A stretch of DNA of 64,000 nt from Gammaproteobacteria bacterium. Lineage in GTDB: Bacteria; Pseudomonadota; Gammaproteobacteria; SZUA-229. The notes under the pieces were generated by a model. The model had not been told where the DNA came from, did no database searches, and worked only from the letters and a program-made list of their open reading frames with translations. Each line of letters begins with the position of its first letter. The stretch's first letter is position 1. A program made the position numbers and the translations under genes. This document shows, piece by piece, positions 31,368-33,108 of this stretch. The stretch is from NCBI GenBank assembly GCA_030148865.1, contig JASBSR010000002.1, forward strand, positions 62,001-126,000. Direction: 5' to 3'.

Positions 31368-32336
31368 ATGAAAACCACAACACCACAACAAAGTCGTTTT
31401 TTGCCGCGCTTTAGCATGGCACTGTTAGCACCGCGCTACTGGTTACTCTGGTTGTTGCTCGCGGTGTTTTATGTGTTCAGCTGGTTGCCGGTTGCGGTGA
31501 TTGATCGTGTCGCGAACAGACTTGGCGATTTTGCAGCAAAAAAAAATCGCAAGCGGGCGCTGGTGGCGCGCAGGAATTTAGAACTCTGTTTCCCGGATAA
31601 ACACCCGGACGAAATCGAGATACTGATACGTGATCATTTTCGCGCTTATTTACGTAGTTTGTTGCACTATCCACTGATCTGGTGGGCGCCGCGCTGGCGT
31701 TTGCAGCGTCACATAGAACTGCAGGGAGAAGAATTGATTGCGCAGCAGCGTGTTCAGGGCAAAAATATTATTATCTTGACCTGCCATAGTGTCGGGCTGG
31801 AGTTTTCGGTTGCCGCGCTAACAAAATACACGGCCTGCGCCGGGCCGTATAAAGCGATGGCACATCCGTTGCTCAACTGGCTGGTGGCCAGAGGCCGGCA
31901 GCAGAATAACGCCCGAGTTTTTACCCGTGATGAGGGTTTGCGACCTCTGGTGCAAATGGCACGCAAGGGTCGGGCGATAATCTATCTTGCTGATGAAGAT
32001 TTAGGGCCTGAGGTATCGGTGTTTGTGCCATTCTTCGGGGTACAAAAAGCCACGATTTCGGTGCTCGGACGATTAGCCAAAACCTGTAATGCAGCGGTGT
32101 TGCCCTGTATCAGTTGCTACGATGCGGCATCAAGGAAATACCGAGTCAGGTTGCTGCCGGCGCTGCAAGATTTTCCACAGGGTGATGACCAGATCAATGC
32201 TCGGGTGATGAATGCCGCGATTGAGGCGGCGGTGCGGGAATGTCTGCCGCAGTATTTCTGGACCATGAAGTGGTTTCGCACTCGACCGCCGGGTGAGGCC
32301 GATCTTTATATGGGGGAGTATCAGGACTCACAGTAG
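31368..32336 (+). CDS. lysophospholipid/lipid A acyltransferase (LpxL/HtrB family)
   Basis: ARRNLELCFPDKHPDEIEILIRDHFRAYLRS, LTCHSVGLEF, VSVFVPFFGVQKATIS. Confidence 0.9.
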   Translation: MKTTTPQQSRFLPRFSMALLAPRYWLLWLLLAVFYVFSWLPVAVIDRVANRLGDFAAKKNRKRALVARRNLELCFPDKHPDEIEILIRDHFRAYLRSLLHYPLIWWAPRWRLQRHIELQGEELIAQQRVQGKNIIILTCHSVGLEFSVAALTKYTACAGPYKAMAHPLLNWLVARGRQQNNARVFTRDEGLRPLVQMARKGRAIIYLADEDLGPEVSVFVPFFGVQKATISVLGRLAKTCNAAVLPCISCYDAASRKYRVRLLPALQDFPQGDDQINARVMNAAIEAAVRECLPQYFWTMKWFRTRPPGEADLYMGEYQDSQ

Positions 32337-32363: not shown

Positions 32364-32390
32364 ATAAAAACCCCGGAACAAGTCCGGGGT
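32364..32390 (-). terminator. Rho-independent terminator of the CsrB-like RNA
   Basis: 8-bp perfect GC-rich stem ACCCCGGA/TCCGGGGT, 5-nt loop, followed by TTTTTAT on the minus strand. Confidence 0.88.
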
Positions 32391-32550
32391 CGGATAACAT
32401 CCTTGCTTGGTGATTGAGCCTCCGCGCTGTAGCATTCGCCGTCTTTCCGTGTAAACTTCCTCTGGAGTCTCGAGAACTACATCCTGATCCCTGTATGCGT
32501 TTGCTACCTTACGTCCCTGAGTCCCTGTACGGCTCTTTCCATGTGTCCTG
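32365..32550 (-). ncRNA. CsrB/RsmB/RsmZ-family CsrA(RsmA)-sequestering small RNA (predicted)
   Basis: Minus strand: CGCAGGACACATGGAAAGAGCCGTACAGGGACTCAGGGACG...ACAGGGATCAGGATG...GAGGAAG...CGGAAAG...CGGAGG...AAGGATG then ACCCCGGA-CTTGT-TCCGGGGTTTTTAT terminator; ~10 GGA motifs; no supported ORF. Confidence 0.82.
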
Positions 32551-32556
32551 CGAATG

Positions 32557-32562
32557 ATTATG
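32557..32562 (-). promoter_or_regulatory. putative -10 element of the CsrB-like RNA
   Basis: CATAAT on minus strand, ~10 nt before the first GGA motif; weak TAGCTT 17 bp upstream. Confidence 0.45.
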
Positions 32563-32606
32563 GTGGCTGTGCCGAGCTTAAGCTATCAGGTAGTTTGGTG
32601 GTGGCT

Positions 32607-32624
32607 TGTAAGAAAGCGCCTACA
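32607..32624 (-). promoter_or_regulatory. GacA/UvrY/LetA-type response-regulator binding site
   Basis: TGTAGGCGCTTTCTTACA (minus) matches TGTAAG-N6-CTTACA with one mismatch; lies upstream of the putative promoter. Confidence 0.72.
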
Positions 32625-32655
32625 AATTTCTGCACATGTTCAGTCTAATTGACGC

Positions 32656-33108
32656 ATGATCGCGCTCTTACAACGTGTCAGGGGTGCCTCCGTGGCCGTC
32701 GATGGGGCTATTATTTCCAGTATAAACAGTGGCTTACTGGTTTTTGTCGGGGTGGTAAAAAATGATAGCGAGGTGCAGGCAGCGCGCCTGGCCGAACGCC
32801 TGCTGAGTTACCGGATTTTTGCCGATGATAAGGATAGAATGAATCTATCCTTACGCGATACCTGCGGAGAGATTTTACTAGTGCCGCAATTTACTCTGGC
32901 CGCCGACACCCGCAGTGGAAATCGACCCAGCTTGACTCCCGCCGCCGGGCCGGAGAAAGCGCAACACCTGTTCGCGCAGGTAGTTGCTATAATGCAGCAA
33001 CAGATAGATGCCGGAGCGTTACAAAAAGTGCAGACTGGCCGCTTCGGCGCAGACATGGCAGTCGAGCTGGTAAACGACGGGCCTGTCACCTTCTGGCTGG
33101 AAACCTGA
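32656..33108 (+). CDS. dtd: D-aminoacyl-tRNA deacylase
   Basis: MIALLQRVRGASVAVDGAIISSINSGLLVFVGV, VPQFTLAADTRSGNRPSLTPAAGP. Confidence 0.96.
   Translation: MIALLQRVRGASVAVDGAIISSINSGLLVFVGVVKNDSEVQAARLAERLLSYRIFADDKDRMNLSLRDTCGEILLVPQFTLAADTRSGNRPSLTPAAGPEKAQHLFAQVVAIMQQQIDAGALQKVQTGRFGADMAVELVNDGPVTFWLET

Follow-up and report, generated by a model that had tools for sequence, protein, structure and literature searches.

Within the window, our term for the whole 64-kb stretch of DNA that was analyzed, a short gap separates the gene for an LpxL-type lipid A acyltransferase from dtd, the gene for D-aminoacyl-tRNA deacylase, and the matches of the two flanking proteins to PF03279 and PF02580 bear out the identities given to them in a first-pass annotation. 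On its minus strand, the gap carries a predicted GGA-rich small RNA (sRNA), whose 5' end is inferred from the position of the -10 box and from where conservation begins on the 5' side. The features of the locus are as follows.

31368..32336 (+), LpxL-type lipid A acyltransferase gene (PF03279); convergent neighbor, context only
32365..32551 (-), predicted GGA-rich sRNA of ~187 nt; matched over its full length by covariance models R1 and R2 (151.7 and 135.7 bits)
32366..32390 (-), intrinsic terminator, from folding; homologues keep both the stem and the T-run
32404..32416 (-), highly conserved segment CAATCACCAAGCA, just after P1; alignments A1 and A3
32416..32420 (-), helix P1, 3' strand GGCTC, from covariation
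32429..32434 (-), helix P2, 3' strand TGCTAC, from covariation
32502..32507 (-), helix P2, 5' strand GTAGCA, from covariation
32531..32535 (-), helix P1, 5' strand GAGCC, from covariation
32557..32562 (-), -10 element CATAAT; CATAAT/CATACT conserved upstream of most homologues
32583..32589 (-), conserved CTGATAG, lying between palindrome and -10 box; alignment A1
32607..32624 (-), GacA/UvrY-type palindrome TGTAGGCGCTTTCTTACA; centered 64 nt upstream of the RNA 5' end
32656..33108 (+), dtd (PF02580); divergent neighbor with conserved synteny, not part of the sRNA

GGA content, coding capacity, and terminator

The first-pass annotation had described a gap without a supported open reading frame (ORF), with about ten GGA motifs on the minus strand followed by a strong intrinsic terminator, and had expected an RNA of ~185 nt; our analysis confirms this observation of a GGA-rich, terminator-ended, noncoding gap. 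All of the listed motifs are present, and the predicted 187 nt (minus strand, 32365-32551) hold 11 GGA, 10 ahead of the terminator and 1 within its stem. This count lies above that of dinucleotide-preserving shuffles of the window copy (mean, 6.5; p = 0.010) and of mononucleotide shuffles (mean, 4.9; p = 0.002), and the segment is the sole 187-nt stretch with 11 GGA on either strand of the window, where the mean is 1.6. All 45 homologues exceed their shuffled expectation (mean of 12.1 GGA versus 7.05 in shuffles), 44 of them individually at p <= 0.05, and full-length homologues carry 9 to 17 GGA each; 415 of the 546 GGA sites in the 45 homologues take the form A-N-GGA. On the RNA's own strand no ORF is longer than 12 codons, the length of the longest closed one, and no ORF is conserved among the homologues. 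For the terminator, ACCCCGGAC-UUGUU-CCGGGGU-UUUU, the folding energy is -16.1 kcal/mol (z = -3.0); it is visible in Rfam alignments and by folding, and a simple consensus terminator scanner did not list it.

Conservation and genomic setting

Homologues were found by blastn and with covariance models. In a set of 60 genomes, blastn gave matches in 12, the window's own genome included; of the others, ten are genuine homologues belonging to the same taxonomic family. The match in genome G004 (L012) was rejected because it covers only a terminator-like stretch; the true copy of that genome lies elsewhere. Comparison of the intergenic region in relatives, which the first-pass annotation had proposed as a check, shows that the RNA is kept: covariance model R1 finds it in 42 of the family's 54 genomes, and the enlarged model R2 finds it in 45. 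It is present in 20 of the 22 good-quality family genomes and in 12 of 14 genera. Identical copies occur on four public contigs titled only as Gammaproteobacteria MAGs, and a search of a plasmid collection gave no match.

In most homologues the RNA stands head-to-head with dtd and starts 100 to 185 nt from it, while in a more distant group it lies ~1.1 kb from dtd. In the window, the two divergent genes share the ~104 bases that lie between them (32552-32655); the palindrome sits ~32 bases from the start codon of dtd, so that gene might also be affected by it.

When model R2 was run on 388 genomes across the class, it gave one strong and five weak matches outside the family. The strong one (L155, genome G405) comes from a genome classified in a different family and keeps the LpxL-sRNA-dtd order, which may reflect a misplaced contig or a misclassified genome. 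Two of the weak matches (L161 in G134 and L162 in G324) have a perfect TGTAGG-N6-CCTACA box upstream; L161 also has nine GGA and a dtd gene ~1.1 kb away, so it may be distantly related to the locus described here. The weak matches in G169, G247, and G306 are without the box, look like chance or repeats, and were set aside.

In one genus, several genomes have an additional copy of the sRNA:

L138, 2048-2235 (genome G068)
L143, 1611-1802 (genome G070)
L141, 223-403 (genome G035)
L136, 1501-1703 (genome G067)

Where the neighbors of these second copies can be read, they include carA and/or sugar transferase and epimerase genes of the exopolysaccharide type. Csr sRNAs usually have sibling copies, and those found in this genus, next to carA and the exopolysaccharide-type genes, offer a natural case of sRNA duplication.

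RNA structure

Conserved features of the aligned homologues are blocks of GGA, a GAGCC close to the 5' end, GTAGCA, and, toward the 3' end, GCTACAGCGCGAGGCTCAATCACCAAGCA ahead of the terminator. Two long-range helices, P1 and P2, enclose most of the GGA sites. When 11 sequences are aligned with MAFFT, 93% of cells pair in P1/P2, and the covariation of these helices exceeds that of all 500 shuffles and of all slid controls. In the alignment of 45 sequences, both partners vary in 14 of the 16 pairs, and the covariation again exceeds that of all 500 shuffles and all slid versions; this alignment was fitted to the model structure and so leans toward it, and the independent MAFFT alignment of 11 agrees.

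The first-pass annotation had proposed that folding be used to see whether the GGA sites sit in hairpin loops, and predicted folds of the 45 homologues, in which GGA are about as often unpaired as other purines (probability of 0.63 versus 0.62, p = 0.81), give that placement no support and do not exclude it either. Folded as a single sequence, the window copy is no more stable than its shuffles (z = 0.09), and single-sequence folding was discarded as uninformative for this copy.

Upstream box and regulators

Upstream of nearly every full-length homologue lies a TGTARG-N6-CYTACA palindrome matching at 11 to 12 of 12 positions, centered ~64 nt from the RNA 5' end, or ~86 nt in the more distant group, with CATAAT between it and the RNA, just ahead of the RNA start. 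The window palindrome differs by one mismatch from TGTAAGN6CTTACA, the UvrY site that ChIP-exo and footprinting located ahead of csrB and csrC (consensus TGTAAGNNNNNNCTTACA; PMC4682653), and our Escherichia coli csrB control contains the equivalent site. The conserved CTGATAG is a possible promoter or accessory element. The window palindrome lies just outside the coordinates of the first-pass annotation, where it had gone unnoticed.

Only two perfect TGTARGN6CYTACA sites occur in the whole genome, the window palindrome being one of them. The other, TGTAAGAAAATTCTTACA, lies at C5:73069-73086 (L164, 1501-1518) and possibly marks a directly GacA-controlled gene; a second GGA-rich sRNA there was considered and rejected, since only 4 GGA lie downstream.

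The genome encodes both halves of the corresponding two-component system. For the GacA orthologue, NF007018 is clearly the best family as judged by profile score (273 bits, 7 bits under the 280-bit cutoff, versus 148 for the next family), and the GacS/BarA orthologue has NF008318 as its best match and contains PF09984. The assembly of this MAG contains neither csrA nor alaS, the latter an essential gene. In the relatives, 43 of 60 of which have csrA, this gene directly follows alaS and precedes tRNA-Ser and tRNA-Arg; in several genomes lacking csrA, alaS is missing or only partly assembled, and the single-contig genome G027 has a run of N after alaS. The spot between alaS and the tRNA genes is repeat-prone. 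Because alaS, the usual neighbor of csrA, is missing too, the absence of csrA is probably an assembly gap, with one region missing rather than a gene lost, and we do not take it as refuting a Csr/Rsm role.

Relation to known Csr/Rsm RNAs

The first-pass annotation had called the locus a CsrB/RsmZ-family sRNA, and the two parts of that claim fared differently. Membership in the sequence families fails: the window stretch has no match to the Rfam CsrB, CsrC, RsmY, and PrrB_RsmZ models at E <= 10, eight loci including distant relatives have none to the Csr/Rsm families at E <= 5, and neither the window nor twelve related loci match anything in Rfam 15 at gathering thresholds. This negative result is informative because the same search finds E. 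coli CsrB (E = 4e-112, 380 bits). The functional part of the claim has strong support in the conservation, the GacA-type box, the GacA and GacS/BarA genes, the GGA content, and the terminator, and the suggestion that the RNA works like CsrB/RsmZ seems largely right even though it is not a sequence member of those families. Since the test of family membership failed, we file the RNA, on sequence evidence, as a new, uncatalogued sequence family within the known Csr/Rsm functional class.

Pseudomonas RsmX, RsmY, and RsmZ have multiple unpaired GGA and a palindromic upstream sequence (PMC2375449), and the RNA described here resembles them in its upstream GacA-type palindrome, its short multi-GGA form, its occasional occurrence in several copies, and its intrinsic terminator. 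It differs from them in that it matches the Rfam models neither in sequence nor in structure, in its conserved core (GAGCC..GGCTC, GTAGCA..TGCTAC, and CAATCACCAAGCA), and in its place next to dtd. With E. coli CsrB and CsrC (RF00018, RF00084) it shares many GGA, an upstream UvrY 18-bp inverted repeat, and its own terminator, but CsrB, at 369 nt, is about twice as long; the CsrB Rfam model does not match here, nor does model R2 match at the E. coli csrB locus. Csr sRNAs are usually without sequence conservation and hard to find by bioinformatics (PMC11882849). Like Pf1, Pf2, and Pf3 of Pseudoalteromonas fuliginea, for which experiments demonstrated a role in the Csr system (PMC11882849), our RNA is lineage specific and is recognized by repeated GGA, promoter, and terminator, whereas those RNAs carry 25, 21, and 9 GGA and belong mainly to another genus, and ours is known from sequence alone.

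Discussion

Our results argue strongly that the locus encodes a GacA-activated, trans-acting sRNA of the Csr/Rsm type that titrates CsrA. We infer that the RNA is transcribed and is bound by CsrA, and the following scheme would connect the elements of the locus. Phosphorylated GacA, acting with GacS/BarA, would bind the palindrome at 32607-32624 and activate the promoter that has the CATAAT -10 box, giving a transcript of ~187 nt with its 3' end at the terminator (32366-32390). P1 and P2 would frame a flexible RNA with ~10 GGA sites, mostly of the A-N-GGA form, that may capture CsrA/RsmA dimers and draw them away from the leaders of target mRNAs, and this titration would change translational control of the Csr regulon.

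The rival reading that survives best, which we nonetheless consider unlikely, is that of a conserved base-pairing (Hfq-type) sRNA, or another RNA under GacA control, that serves mainly some purpose other than CsrA titration and for which the GGA are secondary. The segment CAATCACCAAGCA near the 3' end, which is among the best conserved parts of the RNA, is not GGA and could be a seed or a protein site, and the lack of preferential unpairing of the GGA in predicted folds also bears on this reading; against it, every full-length homologue has its 9 to 17 GGA, almost always significantly enriched, and the conserved box keeps a fixed spacing, as in known csr/rsm sRNA genes (PMC4682653). Considerably less probable still is a cis-acting element or untranslated leader of dtd or of the acyltransferase gene. 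The strong dtd synteny would fit such an element, as would a palindrome between two divergent starts that could act on dtd too, but the RNA is antiparallel to both neighbors and has its own terminator, and homologous copies lie at unrelated loci, for example beside carA and sugar transferase genes. A third rival, a purine-rich gap that is dense in GGA by chance and adjoins an unrelated terminator, might be suggested for the window copy alone by the p value of only 0.01 in dinucleotide shuffles and the unremarkable single-sequence fold, but it is already refuted by conservation across 12 genera, together with covariation and box spacing.

We raise, tentatively and as a less probable extension of the reading that we favor, the possibility that the RNA forms a family of its own, hitherto undescribed, and serves as the main CsrA sponge under GacA control throughout an order of Gammaproteobacteria that are mostly uncultured (an order that, as sampled, contains only this one family), with its own two-helix architecture and with CAATCACCAAGCA giving it a second activity toward a target mRNA or another protein.

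This is an annotation advance that is useful rather than surprising, as the function is familiar while the RNA family is new and is found in no RNA family database. The covariance model and the GacA-type box would together define a Csr-type sRNA for an entire family of Gammaproteobacteria, most of them uncultured, and supply a ready-made Rfam entry, and the finding would place GacS/GacA-CsrA control in that family.
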